This document shows, piece after piece, positions 1 through 18,287 of a stretch of 64,000 nt of DNA (positions are counted from its first letter, which is position 1; each line of letters begins with the position of its first letter). The notes under the pieces were generated by a model. That model searched no databases. It was not told the DNA's origin and saw only the letters and a program-made list of their open reading frames with translations. Position numbers and translations under genes: made by a program. The stretch spans positions 310,001 through 374,000 of the forward strand of contig NZ_ACZN01000015.1 of the NCBI RefSeq assembly GCF_000176135.1, given 5' to 3'. Source of the DNA: Vibrio coralliilyticus ATCC BAA-450 (GTDB taxonomy: Bacteria > Pseudomonadota > Gammaproteobacteria > Enterobacterales > Vibrionaceae).

Positions 1-193
1 AAACTCTAATGGCTGATAACGTCTCTTGCTCTAGGTCATATATATTTCTAGCACGAACACAACCAAGTTTAGGAACTAATATTGAGTTATTATTTTCATG
101 TGCATGATATAAAGTTGGACCGCTATTATTACCAATGGTTTCTATTATATTGAAAAAGTCTTTAATCGAACTTATGTAGTGTTTATCATCCAT
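1..193 (-). CDS. FRG-domain-like protein, N-terminal part, runs off left edge
   Basis: Only the first 64 codons are inside the window. The ATG at 193 is preceded by AAGGA at good spacing. The start (MDDKHYISSIKDFFNII) and the later 'SILVPKLGCVRARNIYDLEQE' area follow the layout of FRG-domain proteins: a leading helix, a short strand, 'L.PK..R', then a 'LEQE' helix. The usual FRG triplet is replaced by a YHAHE-like stretch, so the assignment is tentative. FRG proteins are often found near mobile or defence genes, but their biochemical role is poorly defined. The gene lies 34 bp downstream of the yeiH-like gene on the same strand. The rest of the gene is needed to confirm the family. Confidence 0.45.
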   Translation of the reverse strand, partial: MDDKHYISSIKDFFNIIETIGNNSGPTLYHAHENNNSILVPKLGCVRARNIYDLEQETLSAIRV

Positions 194-227
194 AATTACA
201 TCCTTATAGTACTAATAATCACAAATA

Positions 228-1277
228 CTAAGAAACCATTCGTTGACCATAAATCACAGTCAAAATATATCCCGCTATAAAGACAGCATTAAGCAGTAAT
301 AACAGTATTGGTTTCCATCCGAGAGAAAAAAGCTTTTCAAATGAAGTTTTTACCCCTAAAGCTGCAATTGAAATCACCAGACACCATTTAGAAAGTTCAG
401 ACATACCTTCTGCCAATGGTGCAGAAACCCAACCAAAACTGTTAATCGTAATTAAACCAATAAATACAATCAGAAAGAACGGCATTATTGGTGTTGATAT
501 ATGCGAATCTGAATTGCCGTTATGACTTTTTACCCTGAAAGTTAATGCAATGAGTAAAATCACTGGCATTAGCATGGCGACTCTGAACATCTTCGCTAGC
601 GTCGATGCATCACCGATTTCTGTCGATAACATAAATCCGGCGCCAACTACCTGCGCCACATCGTGAATCGAACCACCGAGGAACATCCCCGCTTCACTCG
701 CTGTTAAGCCAAGTGAATTAACAATCAGTGGATACAACACCATGGCAATTGTTGAGAATGCGGCGACGCCAATCGCTGTCATCAGGGTGTATTGCTCATT
801 CTCCTTGCTTTGAGGGATGGTGGATGAAATGGCCATGGCCGCTGAAATGCCACAGATTCCCGTTGCGCCCCCAGCAAGTAGGCCAAACGTTCCCGATACG
901 TTAAGCAGTCTTGCCAATATAAGACTAAATGAAATGGTCAGTACGACTGCGCCAGCCAGAATCCCTACCCCTTCCAGCCCAATCGCACTGACATCGCTGA
1001 AAGCAATGCGCACGCCCAGCAATGCCACACCAATCCGCACCAGTTTCTTTGCCGCAAACTCGATACCTGCACCGCACTTTTCGTGATCGGATAAAAAGTG
1101 CAATGAGATACCCAGCAACAATGCATAAAGAAACTTAGGGCCTCCATAATGATCAGAGACAAAGGTTGCTGCCGCTGCAATCACGACACTTAGCAGCAAT
1201 CCCGGTGCGATGCCTGTCGCCTCAAAATAGAGACTACGCGGCATTTTCATTGTTTTAGAAATCATTACATCCACCAT
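228..1277 (-). CDS. YeiH/UPF0324 family putative sulfate exporter
   Basis: Polytopic inner-membrane protein with about ten hydrophobic segments and the family signatures GGATGICGISAAMA and GSIHDVAQVVGAG. Members of this family (Cons_hypoth698) beside taurine or sulfonate genes are usually called putative sulfate or sulfite exporters; transport has rarely been shown directly. The open frame reaches back to 1322, but that stretch encodes a GC-rich hairpin between xsc and this gene. I prefer M at 1277, or the next ATG at 1265, which has GGTGG just upstream. The gene directly follows xsc, so the two are probably co-transcribed and the protein would dispose of the inorganic sulfur released by Xsc. 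Confidence 0.8.
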   Translation of the reverse strand: MVDVMISKTMKMPRSLYFEATGIAPGLLLSVVIAAAATFVSDHYGGPKFLYALLLGISLHFLSDHEKCGAGIEFAAKKLVRIGVALLGVRIAFSDVSAIGLEGVGILAGAVVLTISFSLILARLLNVSGTFGLLAGGATGICGISAAMAISSTIPQSKENEQYTLMTAIGVAAFSTIAMVLYPLIVNSLGLTASEAGMFLGGSIHDVAQVVGAGFMLSTEIGDASTLAKMFRVAMLMPVILLIALTFRVKSHNGNSDSHISTPIMPFFLIVFIGLITINSFGWVSAPLAEGMSELSKWCLVISIAALGVKTSFEKLFSLGWKPILLLLLNAVFIAGYILTVIYGQRMVS

Positions 1278-1293
1278 CTTACTCAATCCCTGA

Positions 1294-1316
1294 GTCCGGC
1301 CACTTTCTGGCCGGAC
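1294..1316 (-). promoter_or_regulatory. GC-rich hairpin between xsc and the exporter gene
   Basis: A perfect 9-bp inverted repeat (GTCCGGCCA / TGGCCGGAC) with a 5-nt loop lies just after the xsc stop codon and before the exporter's likely start. No T-run follows, so it is more likely an mRNA 3'-end stabiliser or partial attenuator than a terminator. Confidence 0.5.
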
Positions 1317-1330
1317 AGCCAATCCGCGAC

Positions 1331-3142
1331 TTATACGTAGTCTTTGTATTTGTCGAGGAAGCGGACAGGTTTAGACAGTGCATCCCGGCGGAACGGGTCG
1401 CCCAATTCCTGAGTACACATGATTTCGATGATGGTGGTTTTGCCTTCGTTCATTTGCATGTCGATGGCTTTTTGCAGAGTAGGACCAACATCTTCCAGTT
1501 TGTCGACGGTAATCCCTTCAGCCCCCATTGCGCGTGCAATTTCAGCAAAGCTCTGGTTATCCAGCTCACCAGCAACAAAGCGGCGATTGTAGAAGTCGAC
1601 CTGGTTCTTCTTCTCTGCGCCCCATTGACGGTTATGGAATACCACCGCAGTCACAGGAATGTTGTGACGAACACACGTCATGGTTTCCATCAGGCTCATC
1701 CCCCATGCACCATCACCTGCGTAAGAAACCGCCGGACGATGTGGCGCAGCAACCTTAGCACCAATAATGGTTGGGAAAGCGTAACCACAGTTACCAAAGC
1801 TCATTGCGGCAAAGAAGCTGCGCGGTTTTTCAAAGCGAAGATAGCTGTTCGCCACTGAGTTGATGTTACCGATGTCGGTAGACACCATGACATCTTCTGG
1901 CATCGCTTTTTCAAGTTCACGCAGTACCTGACGTGGATGTAGGTACTCACCACCAGAGAACGGTGTTTCATTAGCATTTTCTTCGATCATGTCTAGGCTG
2001 AACGGGTCACGTTCATGCGTCCACTCGTCGAGCTCTTTTTCCCACAATGCTTTTTCTGTCGCGACTTTATCCAAGCGTACTGCTTTGTTTTCATCACATG
2101 CCAAAGCACGTCCTTCAAGCCTTGTCGCTAATGCCACTGCCGATGCTTTCGCATCACCACAGATGCCAACAGAAATTTTCTTAACCAGACCCAACATTTT
2201 ATTATCAGCATCGATCTGGATGATTTTGGCGTCTTTTGGCCAGTAATCCATGCCGTGCTGTGGCAGCGTACCAAATGGACCAAGACGAGTTCCGAGCGCA
2301 ATCACCACGTCGGCCTGAGAAATCAGCTTCATCGCCGCTTTGGAACCTTGGTAGCCTAGCGGACCACACCAAAGAGGATGGCTAGCTGGGAATGAGTCGT
2401 TATGCAGGTAGCTGTTAACCACTGGAGCGCCTAAACGTTCTGCAAGTGCCGCACACTCTTCAATCGCATCAGCCATGACCACGCCACCACCTGAAATGAT
2501 GACAGGGAATTTCGCTTCTGCGATCAGCTCTGCCGCTTCATTAAGGGATTGTTCACCACCTGGGCCTCTGTCCAGACGAGCTGGTTTTGGAATCTCAGTC
2601 TGAATTTCACCATAGAAGTAATCACGAGGAATGTTGAGCTGGGTTGGGCCCATTTCACTCATTGCTCGGTCAAAACAGCGACCTGTGTACTCCGCCATAC
2701 GATCTGGATGGGTCACATGGCCCTGATACTTAGTAAACTCCTGAAACATTGGCAGCTGGTTACACTCTTGGAAACCGCCAAGACCCATAGTCTTTGTGCC
2801 CGTTTCTGGTGTGACGATCACAACTGGGCTGTGTGCCCAATAAGCCGCTGCAATCGCAGTAACACAGTTACTGATGCCCGGACCATTTTGTCCAATAACA
2901 ACACCATGTCGTCCAGAAACTCGTGAGTAACCGTCAGCCATGTGAGCAGCGCCTTGCTCGTGCACTACCGGAATCAATCGAATGCCTGCAGGAGCGAATA
3001 TATCCATCGCATCCATGAATGCTGATCCCATGATGCCGAACATATCTGTTACGTCATTGGCAACCATGGTCTCAACGAATGCTTCTGATGGTGTCATTGT
3101 CGCATTGCCGGAAACAACCGTGCGTTTTTCTTGCTCACTCAT
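1331..3142 (-). CDS. xsc: Sulfoacetaldehyde acetyltransferase
   Basis: ThDP-dependent cytosolic enzyme that converts sulfoacetaldehyde and phosphate into acetyl phosphate and sulfite, the desulfonation step for taurine and related C2 sulfonates. The 603-residue length is normal for Xsc. The cofactor-activating glutamate is at residue 62 (VVHEQGAAHMADGYSR) and the GDG...N ThDP/Mg motif is in the C-terminal third (SYAGDGAWG, then FHNRQWG). Three domains are in the usual order: PYR, central, PP. The early GIMGSAFMDAMDIF segment is typical of Xsc rather than acetolactate synthase. The ATG at 3142 has a purine-rich AAGGGAAG upstream. The neighbours (pta, TauE, YeiH, IclR regulator) fit a sulfonate dissimilation role. 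No taurine aminotransferase or dehydrogenase is present in the window. Confidence 0.95.
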   Translation of the reverse strand: MSEQEKRTVVSGNATMTPSEAFVETMVANDVTDMFGIMGSAFMDAMDIFAPAGIRLIPVVHEQGAAHMADGYSRVSGRHGVVIGQNGPGISNCVTAIAAAYWAHSPVVIVTPETGTKTMGLGGFQECNQLPMFQEFTKYQGHVTHPDRMAEYTGRCFDRAMSEMGPTQLNIPRDYFYGEIQTEIPKPARLDRGPGGEQSLNEAAELIAEAKFPVIISGGGVVMADAIEECAALAERLGAPVVNSYLHNDSFPASHPLWCGPLGYQGSKAAMKLISQADVVIALGTRLGPFGTLPQHGMDYWPKDAKIIQIDADNKMLGLVKKISVGICGDAKASAVALATRLEGRALACDENKAVRLDKVATEKALWEKELDEWTHERDPFSLDMIEENANETPFSGGEYLHPRQVLRELEKAMPEDVMVSTDIGNINSVANSYLRFEKPRSFFAAMSFGNCGYAFPTIIGAKVAAPHRPAVSYAGDGAWGMSLMETMTCVRHNIPVTAVVFHNRQWGAEKKNQVDFYNRRFVAGELDNQSFAEIARAMGAEGITVDKLEDVGPTLQKAIDMQMNEGKTTIIEIMCTQELGDPFRRDALSKPVRFLDKYKDYV

Positions 3143-3428
3143 TCTTCCCTTCTCCTTGAATTGACATAAATTTCACTTTTCGGAATGAATTGTCTCTTTT
3201 TTTGATTCAAATTCACCTTAGTTGGGGATTTTTTCGCCGTCAAATTTTTTCATCAAATTGGAACAATTCATTCTAATTAATAAAACTGGATCACATTATT
3301 GACAGTTTTTTGTACAGAAAGTGTCGTTAAGTCATTCAGACCTGCTCATAATCGAGCACAGATTTGTTCAGGCTAGTAGATGGTCACTGAACATATGGGG
3401 ATCAGCGCTGTATTAAGAGGGAAGGAAA
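3143..3428. promoter_or_regulatory. Divergent promoter region between xsc and the cobS-like gene
   Basis: A 286-bp AT-rich intergenic region holding promoters for both directions. It contains an inverted pair, GGAATGAATTGT near 3181-3193 and GGAACAATTCATTC at 3260-3273. GGAACAATT also occurs inverted (AATTGTTCC at 7992-8000) in front of pta beside the IclR-type gene. These are candidate regulator sites; no exact promoter is assigned. Confidence 0.4.
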
Positions 3429-4421
3429 ATGGATCAGGCACTCATGGCACCAAGCAAGCAGGTTAGCGTTCGCGAAACCTTTGGCATCGACAGTGATTTG
3501 GAGGTGTTAGCATTTGAAAAAAGAGGAGAATATGTTCCTAAAATAGACCCTAACTATTGCTTTGATCCTGAGGTCACACTGGCGATTTTAGCTGGGTTCA
3601 CTTCAAACCGACGCACCTTGATCCAAGGCATGCACGGTACCGGCAAGTCTTCGCACATCGAACAAGTCGCAGCGAGACTTAACTGGCCTTGTCTGCGAAT
3701 CAATTTGGATGGCCACCTGAGCCGACTCGACTTAATTGGCAAAGACAGCATAGTGCTCAAAGATGGTTTGCAGGTCACTGAATTTAAAGAAGGTATTCTT
3801 CCTCAGAGCATACAACAGCCAATTGCATTAGTACTGGATGAATACGATGCAGGCAGGCCAGATGTGATGTTTGTTATCCAGCAATTGCTGGAACAAGATG
3901 GCAAATACACGTCTCTCGAACAAAATCGCGTGATCACCCCGCATCCGTTTTTTCGCCTGTTTGCGACATGCAATACTCTCGGTTTGGGTAACTTTTCTGG
4001 ACTGTACAGCGGGACTCAAGTCCTCAACCACAGTCAGTTGGACCGCTGGAATATCATTGCAACTCTCAACTATTTGGATGCCCAGCATGAAGCCGCAATC
4101 GTCTTGTCGAAGATCCCCCAGCTCAACACGGAAAACGGACGCCAACTGGTCAATAAGATGATTGCCACTGCGGGGCTTACCCGAAATGGCTTTGCCGCCG
4201 GTGACCTTTCCACCGTGATGTCTCCAAGAACCGTTCTGACTTGGGCGGAAAACATTCAGATTTTCAACAGCGTCGCTACCGCTTTCAGGCTGTCTTTCGT
4301 CAATCGTTGTGAAGATGAAGAGCAAGAACTGGTCGCTGAGTATTACTACCGCTGCTTTGGGGAGGCTCTGTTCTCTGACAAATGCGCTACCACATCTCAG
4401 GAGCCCATCAGCCATGGCTAG
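3429..4421 (+). CDS. CobS-like AAA+ (MoxR-type) ATPase
   Basis: 330-residue AAA+ ATPase. Walker A is near residue 69 (GMHGTGKSSH), Walker B is LVLDEYDAG, and sensor/arginine-finger regions follow (FRLFATCNT; QLDRWN). The N-terminal 'VRETFGIDSDLEVLAF' and overall length match CobS, the ATPase of aerobic cobaltochelatase. AAA+ proteins of this type work with a VWA partner to remodel or load metal into a client enzyme. Here the partner overlaps the 3' end, but CobN and other cobalamin genes are absent, so true cobalt chelation is unlikely. The gene is divergent from xsc, suggesting the client belongs to the sulfonate pathway; this is inference. AAGGA precedes the ATG. Confidence 0.8.
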   Translation: MDQALMAPSKQVSVRETFGIDSDLEVLAFEKRGEYVPKIDPNYCFDPEVTLAILAGFTSNRRTLIQGMHGTGKSSHIEQVAARLNWPCLRINLDGHLSRLDLIGKDSIVLKDGLQVTEFKEGILPQSIQQPIALVLDEYDAGRPDVMFVIQQLLEQDGKYTSLEQNRVITPHPFFRLFATCNTLGLGNFSGLYSGTQVLNHSQLDRWNIIATLNYLDAQHEAAIVLSKIPQLNTENGRQLVNKMIATAGLTRNGFAAGDLSTVMSPRTVLTWAENIQIFNSVATAFRLSFVNRCEDEEQELVAEYYYRCFGEALFSDKCATTSQEPISHG

Positions 4422-6135
4422 TGTTTCCTCTCAGCAGAAAAAGATCCTCGACCTGAGTGTTTCTGTCGCCCGTGCAATCAGTGGCGAAGATACATTAAGC
4501 TACCGAAGTGACCGTCTGTACAAAGGCAATCGCCCGTTTTATTTTCTGTCTGCCCACACCAATGACCTGACTTTCCTGACTCGTCACGAAATGACAAAAA
4601 GTAAACAGGCTACGCAGGGAAAAATGGACTCAGCCGCACTGAGACTGCTTTTGTCCGACTCCCACCTGCACCAAGCACGGCGACCAAAACATGACATCGA
4701 AAGGCTGCTTTTCGACTTCTGCGAACAAGTGCGGGTAGAGTCATTCATCCCAGAACATTTCAAAGGTGTTCAACAGAGCACTCGATTTAACTTTGCTTAT
4801 TGGAGTGAGCAATATCATCAAAATGGCTTCACCGAGTCTCGCCTCGGTATTCTTCTGTTTACCCTGATACAGGTGATCTATTCAAGATTAACTGGCGTTG
4901 CGGTTGCTGAACCGATTGCCGAGTCGATTGAAGCGACGCGCGCCGGAATCGTGCCGTTAATCGGGCATTCGCTCAAGTCATTAAAACAAAATAGGCATCA
5001 GCAAGCCGAGTTTTCGATTTATGCTCTGCAACTTGCCCAGTGTGTTTCCGAGCTCATTGAAAGCGAAGAAAAAGAGTCCGAGAACCAAAGCACACCTACC
5101 GTCGAAGAAGACATCAAAATCCTCGCGCAAATTGCCCTTATCGTCGATGGCGATATAGAAGAGACTGACATTCCAGCCGATGAAACCGGCCAGAGTAAAG
5201 TGTTTGAATTGGCCGATGCGCAGTACCAGGTTTATACACGTGAATTTGATCAAGTTCGCCAAGCGACGTCCCTTGTCCGCCATGCTCTGCTCGATGAACT
5301 AAGACAGAAACTGACCGATGATATGATGGCGCGTTCGATCAATACCCGACGTCTGGCGGCGATGTTAGCCAGCAGTGTGCTAATGCCAGAGCAAAATTGT
5401 CATCGGGATCAGTTGGAAGAAGGCATCGTTGACGCCGCCGCCATTACACGGGTGGTGACATCGCCCTATGATCGCCACATTTTCTTTCAAAGTGATATCG
5501 GCGCCTCTTCCAACGTTGCCATTTCCTTCCTGATCGACTGCTCAGGCTCGATGCAAAAACACGCCCATAAGCTCAGCATGTTAATGGATACCTTGCTTAA
5601 ATCTGTCGGGCTGGCCGACATCCCATGTGAAATTCTCGGATTCACCACAGGAAACTGGAATGGCGGCAGAGCTTATCGGCAATGGCTGAAACAAGGGCAA
5701 CCCCAACACCCGGGGCGTTTAAATGAAGTGCGCCATATAGTTTTCAAAGACTTTGATACCCACTGGCGCCGTGCACGGCGGGGAATCGCCAGCCTGCGTA
5801 AAGCCGACATTTTCAAAGAAGGGATAGATGGTGAAGCTATTCAGTTTGCAAGCCAACGGCTCACCCAACAAGGCGCACAACGTAAGATTCTGATCGTTTT
5901 TTCTGATGGGTGCCCGATGGATACCGCGACCTCCACGGTTAACGATTCGTTTTATCTCGACAACCACCTTAAGCAAGTCATCGAGCAAGCAACGCATAGC
6001 GCCCAGATTGACGTCTATGGCGTTGGCATGGGGGTCGATCTCAGCCCTTATTATCAGCGCAACATCATTATTGATCATCAGGAAAACTGCTTGTTTACCA
6101 TCTGTCGTCACCTGTTCACCATGTTAAAACGGTGA
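4414..6135 (+). CDS. CobT-like VWA-domain protein
   Basis: 573-residue partner of the AAA+ protein, starting at the ATG at 4414 and overlapping the upstream stop codon by 8 bp, so probably translationally coupled. The C-terminal half is a von Willebrand A domain with an intact MIDAS motif (DCSGSM) and a later FSDGCPMD loop. The N-terminal half is mostly helical with an acidic, Glu-rich stretch (SEEKESENQ region), as in CobT. In cobaltochelatase, CobT bridges CobS and CobN; in other MoxR/VWA pairs (for example CbbQ/CbbO) the VWA protein recruits the client. The next gene, tauE, is convergent with an 11-bp gap. The function here is unknown. Confidence 0.75.
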   Translation: MASVSSQQKKILDLSVSVARAISGEDTLSYRSDRLYKGNRPFYFLSAHTNDLTFLTRHEMTKSKQATQGKMDSAALRLLLSDSHLHQARRPKHDIERLLFDFCEQVRVESFIPEHFKGVQQSTRFNFAYWSEQYHQNGFTESRLGILLFTLIQVIYSRLTGVAVAEPIAESIEATRAGIVPLIGHSLKSLKQNRHQQAEFSIYALQLAQCVSELIESEEKESENQSTPTVEEDIKILAQIALIVDGDIEETDIPADETGQSKVFELADAQYQVYTREFDQVRQATSLVRHALLDELRQKLTDDMMARSINTRRLAAMLASSVLMPEQNCHRDQLEEGIVDAAAITRVVTSPYDRHIFFQSDIGASSNVAISFLIDCSGSMQKHAHKLSMLMDTLLKSVGLADIPCEILGFTTGNWNGGRAYRQWLKQGQPQHPGRLNEVRHIVFKDFDTHWRRARRGIASLRKADIFKEGIDGEAIQFASQRLTQQGAQRKILIVFSDGCPMDTATSTVNDSFYLDNHLKQVIEQATHSAQIDVYGVGMGVDLSPYYQRNIIIDHQENCLFTICRHLFTMLKR

Positions 6136-6146
6136 ACAGGGCGTTG

Positions 6147-6908
6147 TTAAGGTTGTAGTGAAAGAAGAGAGGCGATGATCAGGTAGCTGCCTATCATCAA
6201 TAGTACTGAAAATACCAACTTCCTCAGCTGTTGACTGGACAAAGGGGGTGGAAAACGCCGCGCGATGATGGTCACCCCTGTTACCAAAGGAATAGCTACT
6301 GCTGATAGCAGCAATATGCTCGATTCCAGACTGCCGTCAAGATAGACATAAGCGGTACGAGACGCCGAAGTACACGCGAAAACCATCAATAAAGTGCTGC
6401 GCACTAACTCAATGGAAAACGGCTGTTTGTAGAGATGGTAGACAATCGGCGGCCCAGCCATGCCAAACAGACCACCAGCCAGACCAGAGCCAAACCCTGA
6501 GAACAAAAATGAAGTAGAAGCAGAACGGTTTTCAAGCGTTTTGGGCTTAAACACGAAGTTAAGCCCGGCACCGAGAATCATGATCCCCAGCATCCCTCGC
6601 ATGATATTGGTCGCCGACGCACTCAGCTCGTCGAGCAAATACACACCCGCCATGACCCCGGGCACGATACCCACGACCAATGCCAGCATGATTTTCAATT
6701 CCCCCTTTAGTGGCTTACCAACAAGAGCTACCAGACAGTTAAACAGGGTAACAATGCTGACCACAGCGGCGATAACGGGTAGAGAGACCAAATTCAGACT
6801 GACCGTCAGGCCAATCACTATGATTCCTAATCCAAAGCCCGTTACCGTTTGAAAGTAAGTACCAATGGCGATGGTCGCGAGTATGGCCAGTAAAGCGGGT
6901 ATTTCCAT
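6147..6908 (-). CDS. TauE/SafE family sulfite exporter
   Basis: 253-residue inner-membrane protein with about eight hydrophobic segments and the internal duplication of the TauE/SafE family (GFGLGIIVIG near the N-terminus, GSGLAGGLFGMAGPPIVYHLY in the second half). Family members beside xsc or tau genes are proposed to export sulfite made by desulfonation. Its start lies 8 bp after the pta stop codon, with AGGAG before the ATG, so pta and this gene form an operon. It is the second exporter in the locus beside the YeiH-type protein. The substrate is inferred from context. Confidence 0.85.
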   Translation of the reverse strand: MEIPALLAILATIAIGTYFQTVTGFGLGIIVIGLTVSLNLVSLPVIAAVVSIVTLFNCLVALVGKPLKGELKIMLALVVGIVPGVMAGVYLLDELSASATNIMRGMLGIMILGAGLNFVFKPKTLENRSASTSFLFSGFGSGLAGGLFGMAGPPIVYHLYKQPFSIELVRSTLLMVFACTSASRTAYVYLDGSLESSILLLSAVAIPLVTGVTIIARRFPPPLSSQQLRKLVFSVLLMIGSYLIIASLLSLQP

Positions 6909-6916
6909 TCAATCTC

Positions 6917-7966
6917 CTAATTCACGCTGCTGGTGAGCGCGGGGTCAACCGGGCCCGGTTGCGTGTTATTCTCTTCTTGTGCCTGCACTACTGTCACAGC
7001 AATGACATTCACGATGTCGTCGGCGGTACAGCCGCGAGACAGATCGTTCGCCGGTTGATTCAAACCTTGCAAAAGCGGGCCAATCGCAACTGCTCCACCG
7101 AGCCTTTCGGCCAACTTATACCCAATATTGCCTGCCTCCAGATTAGGGAAAATAAGTACATTTGATTGCCCTTTGACTTGAGAGTCTGGCAGCTTCTTAG
7201 CGGCAATTTCCGTCACTATAGCCGCATCAAGCTGAACGTCCTGATCGACAGCGATATCTGGGCATCGCTGTTTCACCAATTGCGCGGCATGGCGAACTTT
7301 GTCGACGGATTCGTGCTTGGCACTGCCGTTGGTTGAAAAGGACAGCATCGCGACTTTAGGTTTTTCCATCAAAAGGTTACGTGCGCTTTGAGACGCAGCC
7401 ACAGCGATAGAGGCCAACTCGCTTTCATTAGGCTCGATCACTAAACCACAGTCACTGAAGATCAATCCCCCTTTAAGGTTATGGAACGGCTCACACAGCA
7501 TCATCAAGAAAAAACTCGACACCAATTCACTGTCTGGCGCAGGGCCAATGATCTGTAACGCTGCTCTCACCACATCTGAAGTTGTGTACTGCGCTCCGTT
7601 AACCGTGCCATCACTTAAGCCTTCAAGAACCATCAGGTTGGCGAAGATCAGCGGGTCTTGTACTTGTTGCAGAGCTTGGTCGTAAGACAACCCTTTCGCC
7701 TTTCTCAATAGGTAGTATCGCTCAGCTAGCACTTCTTTAAGTGGTGAACTGTCAGGAGAGACAATATGTACCCCAGCCAGACTGACCTGATGCAACTTGG
7801 CGGCATCACGAATCACTTGTTTGTCACCAACTAAAGTGATGTGGGCAATCTTCCTGTCCACTGCCATTCGAGCCGCAGCGAGTACACGCGGGTCCTGCGC
7901 CTCACTCAGTATGATCCGCTTACGATTCTGTTGAGCTTTGTTGATGATCCTTTTTATCGCTTTCAT
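6917..7966 (-). CDS. pta: Phosphate acetyltransferase, short form
   Basis: 349-residue PTA_PTB family enzyme that converts acetyl phosphate and CoA into acetyl-CoA and phosphate. Family motifs are visible: SEAQDPRVLAAA at the N-terminus, NGAQYTTSDVVRAALQIIG, and 'VLIFPNLEAGNIGYKLAERLGGA...GPLLQGL' towards the C-terminus. It lacks the long N-terminal regulatory domains of the housekeeping Pta (about 700 residues), and is the short form found with xsc in sulfonate pathways, where it collects the acetyl phosphate made by Xsc. GGAG precedes the ATG. It is divergent from the IclR-type regulator. Confidence 0.92.
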   Translation of the reverse strand: MKAIKRIINKAQQNRKRIILSEAQDPRVLAAARMAVDRKIAHITLVGDKQVIRDAAKLHQVSLAGVHIVSPDSSPLKEVLAERYYLLRKAKGLSYDQALQQVQDPLIFANLMVLEGLSDGTVNGAQYTTSDVVRAALQIIGPAPDSELVSSFFLMMLCEPFHNLKGGLIFSDCGLVIEPNESELASIAVAASQSARNLLMEKPKVAMLSFSTNGSAKHESVDKVRHAAQLVKQRCPDIAVDQDVQLDAAIVTEIAAKKLPDSQVKGQSNVLIFPNLEAGNIGYKLAERLGGAVAIGPLLQGLNQPANDLSRGCTADDIVNVIAVTVVQAQEENNTQPGPVDPALTSSVN

Positions 7967-8122
7967 TTAACAAACTCCATTTAGTGAGACAAATTGTTCC
8001 ATATATTTATTTCATGTTAATGACGAGACAACAAAAGATCAATTTTTATTCAGAAAATGGATATATTATTATTAGGACTGTACAATCTTAGACTTGGATG
8101 TATCGCAAGGATGAATAAAAGT
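7967..8122. promoter_or_regulatory. Divergent promoter region between pta and the IclR-type gene
   Basis: AT-rich 156-bp region that must contain the pta promoter and that of the regulator. AATTGTTCC at 7992-8000 is the inverse of GGAACAATT in the xsc/cobS region, making it a candidate binding site for the adjacent IclR-type protein. Confidence 0.4.
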
Positions 8123-8908
8123 ATGACAAAAGAAGCACCTCAAATTCAGGGGGATACGCCAACACTCCGACTTTTTGCATTGTTGGAGGTGATCGCTCAG
8201 AAAGACGAGTTCATTTCACTGCAAGGCTTAGTGGAAGAGACCGGACTGCCAAAGCCGACGCTACACCGTATGCTTCAGCAGCTCGAATCAGCAGGTATTA
8301 TTCAGAAAGATGGTGATGAAAAGCATTACAGCTCAGGCATTCGCCTAAGAAAGTTGGCTGAGAATTTGTTGCTCAACAGCACTATGCACAGTGCACGCCG
8401 CACCATTCTCGAAAACCTTAGAGCGGAAGTCGGTGAAAGTTGTAACCTGACCGCTCTGTCCAGTGGCGAGATCATCTATCTCGACCGTGCTGAAACCGAA
8501 GCGCCATTGCGTTTCCACCTCCACCCCGGCTCACGAGTCCCCGTGCATTGCTCAGCAACAGGAAAACTGTTCCTTGCTCACATGTCCAAGTCTCAGCGCC
8601 GCCGCTTGATAGAAAGCGTCCCGCTAACCCAATATACGGTCAACACCATCACCAATTTTGATGAGCTGGAGAGAAACATCGACGATGCAAAAATCCACGG
8701 TTTTGCCATCGATGATGAAGAGTTTTTACCCGGTTTAGTCTGTATCGCCGTATTGGTTCCGTCACCAAATGGGCAATCCAATCTCGGTTTAGCTATTCAA
8801 GCCCCCGTGATTCGGGTCAAACCGGACGAAGCCATCAAGTTTCTCCCTGCCCTGCAGAAAGCTGCTAAAGCACTGGCAAAAATTGAAGCAGAGAATTGGG
8901 GCGGATAG
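8123..8908 (+). CDS. IclR-family transcriptional regulator, TauR-like role
   Basis: Helix-turn-helix regulator with an N-terminal winged-helix domain (LRLFALLEVIAQKDEFISLQ, then TGLPKPTLHRMLQQLE) and a C-terminal IclR effector-binding domain (SRVPVHCSATGKLFLAHM is the typical ligand-pocket segment). I place the start at the ATG at 8123 because AAGGA sits 10 bp upstream; the longer frame from 8057 lacks such a site. That gives 261 residues, normal for the family. It is divergent from pta-tauE and is the only regulator in the sulfonate module, so it probably controls this locus in response to a pathway intermediate; the ligand is unknown. Confidence 0.85.
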   Translation: MTKEAPQIQGDTPTLRLFALLEVIAQKDEFISLQGLVEETGLPKPTLHRMLQQLESAGIIQKDGDEKHYSSGIRLRKLAENLLLNSTMHSARRTILENLRAEVGESCNLTALSSGEIIYLDRAETEAPLRFHLHPGSRVPVHCSATGKLFLAHMSKSQRRRLIESVPLTQYTVNTITNFDELERNIDDAKIHGFAIDDEEFLPGLVCIAVLVPSPNGQSNLGLAIQAPVIRVKPDEAIKFLPALQKAAKALAKIEAENWGG

Positions 8909-9302
8909 TATTTTTGCAGTCAGACAGACAGCTTCAGATCAAGCTGGTCGCCGCTTTTCTCGCCAGAGATATGTACGACCAGCTCTATACCTTCCTGCTA
9001 CCAAAACAATAATGGCTTAATCTCCCCTCAGCTTGATTTCAACAGTGCTACAACTTCAGTCCACTATGTCCGAATAGAGCATTAACTATTGAGTCTTAAG
9101 TAAAAATAACACAGCCCAGCGACTTCACTAAGAGATGAGCAACAACAAAATTTCATCCATTTTGTGAGACATGCAGCCAAGATCTATTACTTTGGTGAAT
9201 TTGAAGTACAAAGCATTCATTATAACTATATTTTTAGTTAGATTGATGTGCACTTTCTTTTATATCATTGCTTATCTTTGTTTAAATAACTCAAGGTGCA
9301 TC
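8909..9302. other. Intergenic region before the effector gene
   Basis: 394 bp without a convincing gene. A 33-codon frame without a start (8913-9014, ending with LYTFLLPKQ) could be a remnant but matches nothing I recognise. The right part is AT-rich and ends with CAAGGTG, the ribosome-binding site of the PAAR-like gene. Confidence 0.4.
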
Positions 9303-10706
9303 ATGGGTGTAACAGTTTGTGCTAATGGACTTAGCGTAGTCCATAAGGGATCCGGCGGTGAAGCCAATGCCACATTGCCCGACGTTTGTCTGACCACAGT
9401 CGGTAATGCCGTTGTACCTATCCCATATGGTAATAATGCAAAATCCGCTGATCTAGCAGATGGAACGACCACCGTCTCTATGGATGGCGGCAATAGTATT
9501 GCGATTAAAGGCAGTAAATTCGCGGCAAGTACCGGCGACGCAGGTGGCGATAAGAAAGGTGTCGCGTCAGGAACCATAGAAGCTGAGGCCGAGTTCATCT
9601 CCGCCTCTCCAACCGTTTCGATGGAAGGTAAAGGTGTTTGTCGTTTGTCAGACCAAATGACAATGAACAAAGCCAACACCATGTGTCTTGGCGGTGCTCA
9701 AAACCCTTCAGTCACCGTAACCGAAGATGCTGAAGGAACTTATACTGTTGATCTCTTCCTTTCTTATTCAGATGGTGACCCTGTTCAAGGTGCGACCTAC
9801 AAGCTCACCGATCAAAAAGGCGGTGTTTTTGAAGGCAAACTGGATGACAAAGGTAAGGCATCGGTTAGTGGAGTAGCTCCCGGCGAGTTTGACGTAGAGT
9901 TCGGTGAAGATACTAGGGAGTTCACCCCGAATGAACCGACTAAACAAAACCCGAGATACAACCCGACCGCTGACCCTCAAGAACTTCTCGATAATGCTAA
10001 ACAAGGCGAAGTTGGCTTCTGGGAAAATGCTTGGAGAAAAACATCGGGCGTTGCTAGTTGGATATGGGGAGTAATTTTAGGCGACTTCAATGAAGATGCA
10101 ACTGTTGAACAAATCATCGCCAATACAGCTATCACCATGATTCCAGTTGTTGACCAAGTAGGTGATTTACGAGATTTAGCAGCCAATACTCTACGACTAT
10201 TAGACGAAGAAGCGCGAGATGACCCCGAAAACTGGCTAATGTTATCGCTAACCCTGATTGGATGCATCCCCGTTTTTGGAAGTGCTATGAAAGGTACATG
10301 TAAAGTAGCTCTAAAATTAGGGAAACAGACGCCTAAGGATGATCTGTTAGCTGTGATGAGAGCGGTTGGAAAAGGTGATCCAGAAAAATTCCTGCGCAAT
10401 CTCAAATGGAACGACTACGCCAAACAATGTGCTCAGATATTATCAGATGTTATTAAGCCATGTTGTGAAGTAGGCATAGAGTTAGCTTCTGCCGCGAGTA
10501 GAATTGGCGCTGACGAGTTAGCAAAGTATTTCTTAGATTTAGTAAAAGAGTTGAGAATAGTGGACAAAGTTGGAGGTGATAAAATTGTAGAGGCGATGAA
10601 GAGCTTCGATCACCTATTTGCTTCAATATTAGGGAAAGCAGAGGATGTATTCCCTGCAAGAATTCACCATAGTGGAAAAAAAAGGAAGTGCCCAAAGTGG
10701 GACTAA
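9303..10706 (+). CDS. DUF4150/PAAR-like toxin carrier, probably T6SS-delivered
   Basis: 467-residue protein from the ATG at 9303 (AAGGTG upstream; the frame extends to 9171 without a site). Residues 1-130 are a PAAR-like DUF4150 domain (GVTVCANGLSVVHKGSGGEA; DVCLTTVGNAVVPIPYGNN; GGAQNPSVTV), which caps the T6SS spike. A beta-sandwich linker follows (DPVQGATYKLTDQKGG), then a hydrophobic pre-toxin segment (IANTAITMIPVVDQVGDL; LTLIGCIPVFGSAMK). The protein ends at KKRKCPKWD just after an A8 run at 10676-10683. Removing one A would extend it 42 codons beyond the present stop, to 10833. The T6SS link is inference from the domain; no other T6SS gene is in the window. Immunity-like genes follow. 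Confidence 0.75.
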   Translation: MGVTVCANGLSVVHKGSGGEANATLPDVCLTTVGNAVVPIPYGNNAKSADLADGTTTVSMDGGNSIAIKGSKFAASTGDAGGDKKGVASGTIEAEAEFISASPTVSMEGKGVCRLSDQMTMNKANTMCLGGAQNPSVTVTEDAEGTYTVDLFLSYSDGDPVQGATYKLTDQKGGVFEGKLDDKGKASVSGVAPGEFDVEFGEDTREFTPNEPTKQNPRYNPTADPQELLDNAKQGEVGFWENAWRKTSGVASWIWGVILGDFNEDATVEQIIANTAITMIPVVDQVGDLRDLAANTLRLLDEEARDDPENWLMLSLTLIGCIPVFGSAMKGTCKVALKLGKQTPKDDLLAVMRAVGKGDPEKFLRNLKWNDYAKQCAQILSDVIKPCCEVGIELASAASRIGADELAKYFLDLVKELRIVDKVGGDKIVEAMKSFDHLFASILGKAEDVFPARIHHSGKKRKCPKWD

Positions 10707-15338: not shown

Positions 15339-18287
15339 TTAATGAAATCCTTCAATAAAAGTTTCAACGAAACCTTTTAACCGCTCAGTAATGCGAGGAA
15401 GAATAGTTCTTCGGGTTCTAAAAGTCATCTTCTCAGTTGTTAGCTGGGCAATATCATCCGACTTCAAGCTGTCTACACTCATACCGTTCTCGATGTTCGT
15501 CACCATTTCGCTGAACTTATCGGTGTCCAACTTCTCTTCTTCTGCTATCTGGCTTAGCTCTTTTTGCTTTTGCTCTTCGATGTACTCATCAAATTCAGCA
15601 CCTTGCACTAAGCCTTGCATCGACTTCTCAATAAAATCTTCGATGAGAGAGCGCTTACTGTGCAATGTCGGTTCAGTAGCCAGTAAGTTAGCGATAACTT
15701 GGCGCTTTTTCTCTTTCGCTTCGTCACAAGATTCTTCGAACATTGTCATTAGAAGATGACGGATATAGCTAACGTTGACTTCATCTCGTTGGAGTAGCTC
15801 TAGCTCAAAATCGATGTCCGCTAGGATAGACTCTTTATCTGCAGGACCTTTCTTGAGTTCACGGGCTAAATCGCTGTATTTAGAGGCGTAGTCAACGAAC
15901 TCTTGTTCAGACATACCAAGTGTTTCAATGTCGAAGTCGCTAAATGTCTCTAGCTGGTTCTTTAAGCGCATCAAGATGCGGAACTGCTTAATAAAGCCTG
16001 CTTGCATATCTTCATCAGGCAAGTCATCGACACTCTGCACATCAGGAGCAATTGCTTTCAACGCTTCAAGCGCTTTAGAAAAGTCTTCCGTCAGCCCGTT
16101 AAGATCTGGTACTTCGATATCTTCAATTGGCTTCTTGTTTGAGAATAACTTAAACGCCTCGTCAGCTTGCGGTTTGAGGTTGCGGTAACACATGACGTTA
16201 CCATGCGACTTCACTGTGCCGTTTAGGCGGTTAGTTCGGGAGAAGGCTTGCACCAAGCCATGGTATTTAAGGTTTTTATCGACATAGATGGTATTCAAAC
16301 CAGGAGCATCAAAACCTGTTAAGAACATATTCACGACTAGCAAAATATCTACCTCACCGTTCTTGGTGCGGTTCGATAGATCCTTGTAGTAGTTGTAGAA
16401 ACTGTCGGTATCTTGGGTTGAATAGCTTGTACCAAACTGCTGGTTATAGTCTTCGATGTAAGCATCTAGCTTGTCTCGACTATGCACTTTGGCATTGGCT
16501 TCCGCCAAGCCTTTAACATTGACCTCACCTTCGAACTCTTCTTCCTCATTTACGCCATAGCTAAAGATGGTGCCGATATTGAGCTTATGTTTGCCCTCTT
16601 CTTTGAGTGCTTTGAAGGTGTCGTAATAAGTGATGAGATCAGGTACACTCGCAACACACAGCATGGCGTTAAACTTGCGTTTGGTCTTATGACCGTGGAT
16701 ACCAATGATGTGCTCACATACTTGTTTAATACGCTTTGGAGAGCTAAAAAACTCGGCGACATCGATACTACTTACATCGACATCCATGCCATCGTTTTTA
16801 TGCTTCAGCTTGCCGTAATACTCGATAGCAAATGGCAACACGTTATCGTCTTTGATGGCATCAACAATTACATAGCTATGGAGGCGCTCACCAAATAGAT
16901 CCTTTGTGGTTCTTTTTTGTGTGCCTTTACCTTCCACTTTTTTAGCGGTCGCATTGTCGGCGAAGATTGGTGTCCCCGTAAAACCAAATAGCTGTGCTTT
17001 TTCGAAGAAGTCGACGATGTTTTGGTGCGTTTCGCCAAATTGACTGCGATGGCATTCATCAAAAATAAAGACCACTCGTTCTTGGCGAAGATGTTCAACC
17101 TGCTCTTTAAAACGAGGTTTGGTGATCAGGTTATTAAGCTTTTGAATTGTCGTAATGGTCAGCTTATTGATGCGATTGACTTTATTACTGTAGATAGGCG
17201 CATACTCTGCGACCCGAGGTAGCTCTTCACCATCATTGGCACTACTACCTTTTATGTTTAGGGCTGTCTTCGCCATGTTCTTTGGTGGAAGTGGTCGTGA
17301 ACCGAGGAACTGATTCAGAAGGCTTTTAGTATCACCCGTGCTGTCGACACTACCTCTCAAGAACGCATCAAACTCTTTTGCGGTTTGGTAATCGAGGTCT
17401 TTACGGTCGACCACGAATACCACTCTATCCACATCTTCAAGCGTAGAGAGGATCTGGGCGGTTTTGAAGCTGGTCAGCGTCTTGCCGCTGCCAGTGGTGT
17501 GCCAAATGTAACCGTGGTTATTGTTGGTTTTAACCTGATTAACGAGCGCTTCTACCGCATAGAATTGGTAAGGGCGAAGCACCATCAAAAACTTTCCTGA
17601 TTCGTTCTGTACGATGTAGCGACTGAGCATCTTAGTCAGATGAGCTTGATTTAAGAAAGCATCGGCAAACTGAGGCAGCGAGTTAATCTTGTTGTTCTCA
17701 ATATCCGTCCAGTGGAAAGTCTGTTTAAACGAAAGCTCACGGTTGTTAGAGAAGTATTTGGTGTTAACACCGTTAGAGATAACAAACAACTGTACGTAGT
17801 TGAACAGCCCGCCTTGCGCACCGTAGGTATGCTTGTCGTAGCGTTTGATTTGATTGAAGGCCTCTGCCAGCTCAATGCCTCGGCGTTTTAGTTCAATTTG
17901 AATCAGCGGCAAACCATTCACCAAGATGGTGACGTCGTAGCGGTTCTCGTACGTCCCTTGAATGGTGAGCTGGTTGGTCACTTGGAAGTGGTTCTTGCTG
18001 GCATCATCAAATAACAGAGTCAGGTAATCGGTGGTGCCATCTTCACGAGTAACATCCACCTTGCCTTTCAAGCGCTTGGATTTATCGAAGATGCTGCCTT
18101 TTTCAAGTTTGATTAGCACACCTTCAAACTCACGCTCGTTGAGCGTGACGCCATTAGCTTTCTCAAGCTGAGTTTTGAGGTTCGCCTTCAGCGCCTCAGC
18201 GTTACCAATATCGACAGGTTTGAAATCGGCAGCGACAAGCTGATCGATTAGCTCTTTTTCAAGTTGTGCTTCTGATTGTGTGCTCAT
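15339..18287 (-). CDS. hsdR: Type I restriction endonuclease subunit R
   Basis: 982-residue motor/nuclease subunit of an EcoR124-like (type IC) enzyme. An N-terminal PD-(D/E)xK nuclease is visible (YDVTILVNGLPLIQIELKRRG, near residues 115-135). It is followed by superfamily 2 helicase motifs: TGSGKTLTSF, FDECHRSQFG, FTGTPIF, MFLTGFDAPGLNT and LVQAFSRTNRLNG. A helical C-terminal domain contacts the methylase. It translocates DNA and cleaves at a distance from unmethylated sites bound by HsdM2S. The frame is intact. It is separated from hsdS by 163 bp, so it may have its own promoter, which would allow modification to be established before restriction. Confidence 0.95.
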   Translation of the reverse strand: MSTQSEAQLEKELIDQLVAADFKPVDIGNAEALKANLKTQLEKANGVTLNEREFEGVLIKLEKGSIFDKSKRLKGKVDVTREDGTTDYLTLLFDDASKNHFQVTNQLTIQGTYENRYDVTILVNGLPLIQIELKRRGIELAEAFNQIKRYDKHTYGAQGGLFNYVQLFVISNGVNTKYFSNNRELSFKQTFHWTDIENNKINSLPQFADAFLNQAHLTKMLSRYIVQNESGKFLMVLRPYQFYAVEALVNQVKTNNNHGYIWHTTGSGKTLTSFKTAQILSTLEDVDRVVFVVDRKDLDYQTAKEFDAFLRGSVDSTGDTKSLLNQFLGSRPLPPKNMAKTALNIKGSSANDGEELPRVAEYAPIYSNKVNRINKLTITTIQKLNNLITKPRFKEQVEHLRQERVVFIFDECHRSQFGETHQNIVDFFEKAQLFGFTGTPIFADNATAKKVEGKGTQKRTTKDLFGERLHSYVIVDAIKDDNVLPFAIEYYGKLKHKNDGMDVDVSSIDVAEFFSSPKRIKQVCEHIIGIHGHKTKRKFNAMLCVASVPDLITYYDTFKALKEEGKHKLNIGTIFSYGVNEEEEFEGEVNVKGLAEANAKVHSRDKLDAYIEDYNQQFGTSYSTQDTDSFYNYYKDLSNRTKNGEVDILLVVNMFLTGFDAPGLNTIYVDKNLKYHGLVQAFSRTNRLNGTVKSHGNVMCYRNLKPQADEAFKLFSNKKPIEDIEVPDLNGLTEDFSKALEALKAIAPDVQSVDDLPDEDMQAGFIKQFRILMRLKNQLETFSDFDIETLGMSEQEFVDYASKYSDLARELKKGPADKESILADIDFELELLQRDEVNVSYIRHLLMTMFEESCDEAKEKKRQVIANLLATEPTLHSKRSLIEDFIEKSMQGLVQGAEFDEYIEEQKQKELSQIAEEEKLDTDKFSEMVTNIENGMSVDSLKSDDIAQLTTEKMTFRTRRTILPRITERLKGFVETFIEGFH

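Follow-up and report, generated by a model that had tools for sequence, protein, structure and literature searches.

The locus examined here raises the question of why a gene pair of the cobaltochelatase type lies beside xsc, the gene for sulfoacetaldehyde acetyltransferase. The window, a 64,000-nucleotide stretch of the Vibrio coralliilyticus ATCC BAA-450 genome (contig NZ_ACZN01000015.1, positions 310,001 to 374,000), contains a CobS-like AAA+ ATPase gene followed by a gene for a CobT-like von Willebrand factor A (VWA) protein. The branch to which the pair belongs probably services the sulfonate (taurine) pathway rather than B12 synthesis. Judged from sequence comparison, a role as a dedicated remodeller of that pathway is well supported, because the pair forms a separate branch, CobN has no match in most of the tested genomes that carry it, it is tied to a close Xsc, and it shares a conserved region with xsc. 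We lean, if only slightly, towards the fuller statement that it is a dedicated, ATP-driven remodeller of CobS/CobT lineage in the taurine/sulfoacetaldehyde pathway, most likely acting on Xsc.

The pair accompanies close Xsc proteins

Searches for the CobT-like protein, made regardless of linkage, covered four overlapping sets of genomes, and an Xsc was termed close when at least about 80% identical to that of the window. Among 61 genomes of relatives (sample i), Xsc scored above the TIGR03457 cut-off in ten, and the CobT of the pair was found in the same ten. The class sample (sample ii, 369 genomes) contains seven genomes with a close Xsc and five with CobT of this branch, all five within the seven, and in the phylum sample (sample iii, 398 genomes) a close Xsc and the branch occur in the same seven genomes. 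Fisher p values for these three samples are 1e-11, 4e-10 and 3e-15, with kinship not corrected for. Sample iv comprised 190 genomes of the family of genome G728, which is probably Burkholderiaceae given that the Xsc and CobT of its members group with those of Cupriavidus and Burkholderia. The branch was detected in 63 of them at 481 bits or more, and all 63 carry a close Xsc on the same contig: 61 fetched stretches place xsc at most 2.2 kb away in 53 and 13.5-20.9 kb away in eight, and the distance is about 21 kb in G728 and 28 kb in G656. Assignment to the branch was made by score for 61 genomes of this sample (all except G728 and G656), against best non-branch CobT scores of 387 bits (class sample) and 362 bits (phylum sample). 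The counts leave out a match in G049 (E 9.9e-4, residues 444-504 only), G728-family matches that score no higher than 117 bits, and class matches of up to 387 bits and phylum matches of 354 and 362 bits, which belong to the other CobT branch or scored under it.

The union of the samples holds 79 genomes with the pair, all 79 of which possess a close Xsc, in 77 cases on the same contig and at most 28 kb apart. No case of the branch without a close Xsc occurs among the pair genomes of the four samples, and the pair thereby shows the genetic tie to one putative client enzyme that characterizes client remodellers. In the reverse direction, the pair is present in 18 of the 20 close-Xsc genomes of samples i to iii. 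The first-pass annotation, made from the window alone, had proposed that the pair is dedicated to Xsc or another sulfonate enzyme and had suggested a survey of xsc against cobN; in that survey the distribution of the branch matches that of close Xsc almost perfectly and shows hardly any relation to CobN, and no clustering with cobN, the result that would have refuted the proposal, was seen (linkage to other cobalamin genes lay outside the search). The tie to xsc and the sulfonate locus is thus upheld by co-occurrence, and Xsc itself would be the client by a further step, weighed below.

Named records give the same picture of linkage. Ten plasmid or second-chromosome records contain a close Xsc, and among the nine examined, the pair lies within about 4 kb of xsc in all seven from Pseudomonadota (Photobacterium, Burkholderia arboris, B. 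multivorans, Caballeronia, two Cupriavidus and Paraburkholderia phymatum). P. phymatum STM815 carries two copies of xsc besides the pair. The CobT-like gene of Cupriavidus sp. EM10 (L069, 20748-22381) matches in two frames, perhaps through a frameshift. Three records with a distant Xsc (46-47%; Paracoccus, Aminobacter and Azospirillum) were examined, and none has the pair within 15 kb of xsc. The spacing between pair and xsc is mostly 0.2-6 kb and the intervening genes vary (IclR genes, tauE-pta, a TRAP transporter); retention of linkage despite such rearrangement argues for a shared job.

The pair is distinct from the aerobic cobaltochelatase

Taken broadly, the CobS/CobT superfamily includes both proteins, with all four Pfam models above cut-off: CobS_N (42.1 bits) and AAA_5 (42.6 bits) on the CobS-like protein, and PF11775 (146.3 bits) and PF06213 (58.5 bits) on the CobT-like protein. 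By sequence profile, the CobT-like N-domain and VWA domain and the CobS-like protein match solved cobaltochelatase chains (9uka, 9ujv, 9udk, 21vt, 21vu), of which entry 21vu contains a CobT N-domain with a CobS C-terminal piece. The equivalog models, however, score below their cut-offs, with TIGR01650 (CobS) at 472.7 bits against 558.55 and TIGR01651 (CobT) far below at 253.8 bits against 759.05.

Maximum-likelihood analysis of 61 CobT-type sequences separates the 26 that come from xsc-bearing loci or genomes from the 35 others with support of 100/100, a split that is present in all 200 bootstrap trees. Branching order within the xsc-type group is unsure because of long branches, above all that of G107, and uneven composition in many rows. 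Mean identity of the VWA domain is 59% within the xsc-type group (congeneric Vibrio rows included), 75% among the others and 40% between the groups. The linker before the VWA domain has a median length of 74 residues with 16 D/E in the 26 xsc-type proteins versus 115 residues with 40 D/E in the 35 others, and seven alignment columns divide the groups with almost no exceptions. The metal-ion-dependent adhesion site (MIDAS), D.SGS, is retained in 26 of 26 xsc-type proteins. A predicted structure for the CobT-like protein, based on 13 Vibrio rows, was discarded (mean pLDDT 39.1, pTM 0.28).

The presumed absence of CobN was borne out, as PF02514 has no match in the whole V. coralliilyticus genome (G000), other cobalamin genes not having been searched for. 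CobN is likewise unmatched in 15 of the 18 pair genomes tested (18 out of 79) and present in three (G656, G600 and G202); conversely, the pair is present in none of the eight CobN-bearing relatives of the 61-genome sample. Neither a cobalamin riboswitch nor any other Rfam match was found in window positions 1-10000 or in five loci. These results bear on the reading that the pair is an ordinary aerobic cobaltochelatase pair for cobalamin that lies beside xsc by chance. Clear homology to CobS and CobT, 62-63% identity of the CobS-like protein to an other-branch CobS-type protein of Shinella, and the three CobN-bearing pair genomes are in keeping with it, but the distribution of CobN, the missing riboswitch, the low CobT score and the separate CobT branch make it very improbable; an ordinary cobalamin role was rejected and the chance-neighbour reading is nearly refuted. 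By these sequence criteria the pair fails the cobaltochelatase tests tried (CobN in the genome, equivalog cut-offs and a long acidic linker), and cobalt chelation by it is unlikely.

A divergent region shared with xsc

The divergent region between xsc and the cobS-like gene contains an 11-bp inverted repeat, the first arm of which is invariant in six aligned Vibrio loci and the second of which differs in one, V. mediterranei. It also contains the 10-mer AATTGTTCCA, which recurs upstream of pta in the divergent pta-iclR region (Table 1). Two copies in the 64-kb window compare with 0.14 expected, and none of 100 shuffles reaches two. In relatives, the exact 10-mer is found in 9 of 12 xsc-cobS regions and 10 of 11 pta-iclR regions; a 15-nt version with up to three mismatches is found in 12 of 12 and 9 of 11, respectively (the other two at four mismatches), against 30 of 1000 random stretches. 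The 11-bp half-site with one mismatch was rejected as an enriched element, its five occurrences in the window versus 2.47 expected being within chance, so that only the 10-mer stands out. The IclR-family regulator encoded downstream of the second site likely controls the cluster.

The proposed client and the points that weigh against Xsc

A phylogenetic tree of Xsc places 19 pair-associated Xscs in one clade of 22 (100/99) together with the pair-less Xscs of G102, G242 and Rhodococcus. A single gain of the pair followed by later loss would be the natural, if unproven, reading of this tree. Xsc residues that track the pair were sought, and the near-consistent columns (56, 82, 525 and 544) were set aside as explained equally well by phylogeny.

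The main alternative client, and a real rival, is TauXY: the same kind of machine would act on the TauXY taurine dehydrogenase (an NTF2-like protein with an FAD protein) or on Pta rather than on Xsc. The 61 stretches of sample iv contain NTF2/TauX-like genes in 55, xsc in 53 and Pta in 50, so that the former are about as frequent as xsc, and in the eight stretches without xsc the pair adjoins TauXY-type genes. Pta finds a case in the draft genome G107, where the pair adjoins a pta gene and xsc is on a separate contig; in a second draft, G323, pair and xsc are also on separate contigs. Of 12 pair genomes examined for TauY at E 1e-60, however, three (G202, G107 and G323) have no match, and the pair-less G102 and G242 do have one. 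Among the cluster enzymes compared, Xsc is thus the one that no pair genome lacks, Pta having been counted in the sample iv stretches rather than genome-wide, and a TauXY or Pta client is rather unlikely.

A factor for a membrane partner, the TauE or YeiH exporter, or for general sulfite stress, instead of a carbon-flow enzyme, is improbable. TauE-like genes lie beside the pair in Vibrio and in 30 of the 61 G728-family stretches, and RavA/ViaA, another AAA+/VWA pair, is reported to act at the inner membrane; near the pair, however, TauE-like genes are less constant than xsc or pta.

Several observations weigh against a dedicated remodeller of Xsc. Two class-sample genomes of one genus (G102 and G242) have a close Xsc and no pair, and two Rhodococcus plasmids with a close Xsc carry none up to 15 kb from xsc (plasmid sequence searched); the pair is therefore not needed by every close Xsc. 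Four further genomes with an Xsc of 64-71% identity (G115, G168, G284 and G369) are also without it. Of the 77 cases with both on one contig, 10 have the pair as far as 13-28 kb from xsc, and the eight stretches fetched for these cases place it in a TauXY-type cluster instead. The correlation of CobT and Xsc distances is weak (Spearman 0.41 on 12 taxa, reached by 370 of 5000 Mantel permutations), and the clustering may reflect transfer of one module only. The Photobacterium xsc-cobS region has no 15-nt site at four mismatches, and regulation through the shared 10-mer may be limited to xsc, a divergent region being unable to distinguish xsc, cobS or both.

Organization of the locus

The first-pass description of an intact CobS-type ATPase gene overlapping an intact gene for a MIDAS-bearing VWA protein, divergent from xsc, was confirmed by reading frames, Pfam matches and motifs. 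The overlap is 8 nt; the mechanical open reading frame (ORF) of the CobT-like gene begins at GTG 4309 and the gene was taken from ATG 4414. Walker A and Walker B of the CobS-like protein are invariant across 11 aligned rows. The pair sits between xsc and tauE-pta, and past the left end of the window TauX/TauY-like and TRAP-transporter genes extend the cluster in the genome, for which reason it is very probably a taurine locus. The closest named locus is that of Vibrio sp. RE88 (98% across the CobT-like protein). Farther along the window, a 511-residue ORF (9171-10706) resembles by eye a PAAR-type protein with an extension and is followed by several small ORFs, and a 982-residue ORF (15339-18287) resembles by eye a type I restriction HsdR subunit.

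Table 1. Genes and sites of the cluster in window coordinates
Feature	Position	Strand	Details
YeiH-type putative exporter	228-1322	-	PF03601 228.8 bits; TIGR00698 138.5 bits, below 232.6 cut-off
xsc, sulfoacetaldehyde acetyltransferase, proposed client	1331-3142	-	TIGR03457 1078 bits, above 676.4 equivalog cut-off
Divergent xsc-cobS intergenic region	3143-3428	.	Inverted repeat and 10-mer; kept in Vibrio relatives
11-bp inverted repeat	3183-3193/3263-3273		
10-mer AATTGTTCCA, first copy	3259-3268	-	In xsc-cobS region
CobS-like AAA+ ATPase	3429-4421	+	330 aa, frame intact
Walker A	3627-3650		GMHGTGKS
Walker B	3837-3842		DE
CobT-like VWA protein	4414-6135	+	573 aa, ATG at 4414, frame intact
MIDAS	5536-5550		DxSGS
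TauE/SafE-family exporter	6147-6908	-	PF01925 69.8 bits, cut-off 32.6
pta, phosphate acetyltransferase	6917-7966	-	TIGR00651 349.2 bits, cut-off 311.2
Divergent pta-iclR region	7967-8056	.	Second AATTGTTCCA at 7992-8001 (+), upstream of pta
IclR-family regulator	8057-8908	+	PF01614 117.9 bits, PF09339 45.3 bits

CobST pairs of the other branch

CobT of the other branch shows an association of its own with Xsc. In the class sample it occurs in 7 of 10 genomes with a distant Xsc (45-48%) versus 6 of 359 other genomes, with kinship uncontrolled; the distant Xsc and the CobT are on different contigs where listed. In the phylum sample it occurs in 19 of 19 distant-Xsc genomes, and CobN was found in all seven of those tested, so shared B12 synthesis may explain the association. 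Of the 13 genomes in the class sample that carry this CobT, 10 (G077, G106, G153, G180, G235, G249, G273, G323, G341 and G412; most of them drafts) have no CobN match at E 1e-10, which either weakens the general equation of CobST with a chelatase or reflects incomplete assemblies.

Two of these pairs (L183 in G235 and L184 in G341), from genomes of 1.2-1.3 Mb in which CobN is unmatched, each adjoin an AurF-like gene of the p-aminobenzoate N-oxygenase family, and another CobST client is possible there. Other-branch pairs in L189 (G077) and L194 (G323) lie near genes with FAD oxidoreductase and aminomethyltransferase domains, with an aldehyde dehydrogenase also nearby in L189 and a molybdopterin enzyme in L194. 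A wider reading, which we put forward tentatively as possible, is that CobST pairs act as motors for repair or maturation in general, the cobaltochelatase being only one of several clients: the present branch would be an Xsc activase that frees an inhibited or sulfite-damaged thiamine cofactor, CobN-less pairs such as those beside AurF-like genes would act on other enzymes, and the distant Xscs may even be clients of ordinary CobST.

A possible mechanism and its significance

Xsc is a thiamine diphosphate (ThDP)/Mg enzyme that produces sulfite next to its ThDP. As no requirement of Xsc for a metal inserter is known to us, metal loading is the weaker half of the earlier suggestion that the pair is an activase or a metal loader. 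An activase that ejects dead cofactor is offered as an economical guess and not as a result, because Xsc makes sulfite beside ThDP and sulfite cleaves thiamine. This cleavage is described in an excerpt of PMC8839250, and the NorQD model, as excerpted from PMC13036017, has the ring twist the VWA adaptor to open the client.

By homology, the CobS-like subunits would assemble into an AAA+ ring on which the CobT-like protein docks. Contact of the latter with the client would be made by the MIDAS-bearing VWA domain, the N-terminal domain or both, and ATP hydrolysis would twist this adaptor and thereby open the client. With Xsc as the client, as we infer, inhibited or sulfite-cleaved ThDP would leave and fresh Mg-ThDP would enter, comparable to the action of CbbQO on inhibited Rubisco. 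On the two Rhodococcus plasmids, whose xsc clusters lack the pair, thiS and a gene for thiazole synthase lie at a distance of about 11 kb from xsc (L070, 3124-4117; L071), a weak indication from one lineage.

Among the matches listed in literature searches no report links CobS/CobT with Xsc; coverage of subscription journals was limited and an earlier mention is possible. In its excerpted text, PMC4334477 holds both terms separately: one of its tables lists a CobS gene, and its references include a paper on Xsc. PMC10809759 applies transposon sequencing (Tn-seq) to Caballeronia insecticola on taurine; the portion of its main text available makes no mention of cobalt, chelatase or xsc; an excerpt of PMC6829993 mentions xsc and tauX of Burkholderia cenocepacia and not the pair. 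If the pair does serve the sulfonate pathway, the labels 'cobalt chelatase' and 'CobT' given to genes next to xsc in bacteria from sea and soil, such as Caballeronia sp. NK8, would be B12 misannotations, and an accessory factor for a key step in the breakdown of taurine and sulfonates would so far have gone unrecognised. With Xsc as the client, the pair would to our knowledge be the first activase for a ThDP enzyme, and it becomes a testable question how a sulfite-making enzyme keeps a cofactor that sulfite destroys.

Comparison with known systems

The pair shares with aerobic cobaltochelatase CobN/CobS/CobT a CobS_N domain with an AAA+ ATPase and a CobT N-domain, linker and MIDAS-bearing VWA domain. 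It differs in the lack of a CobN match in most pair genomes tested, in its own CobT branch, in both equivalog scores, in its shorter and less acidic linker and in its linkage to xsc. Intact AAA+ motifs and a neighbouring MIDAS-bearing VWA protein place it in the same working class of client remodellers as CbbQO and NorQD. The Rubisco activase CbbQ/CbbO is also an AAA+/VWA pair for one metabolic enzyme, for which repair of blocked sites has been proposed (excerpt of PMC9976466), but it is of another lineage, and the client here would be a ThDP enzyme; CbbQ_C (PF08406) scores 19.6 bits on the CobS-like protein, below the 20.6 cut-off, which leaves it outside the CbbQ/NorQ family proper. In NorQ/NorD, an AAA+ ring similarly drives a VWA adaptor that remodels one client (excerpt of PMC13036017), whereas that system serves iron insertion into nitric oxide reductase, a membrane enzyme, and is again of a lineage other than CobS/CobT. 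The analogy of the present pair with CbbQ/CbbO or NorQ/NorD is thus solely that of an AAA+/VWA pair tied to one pathway.

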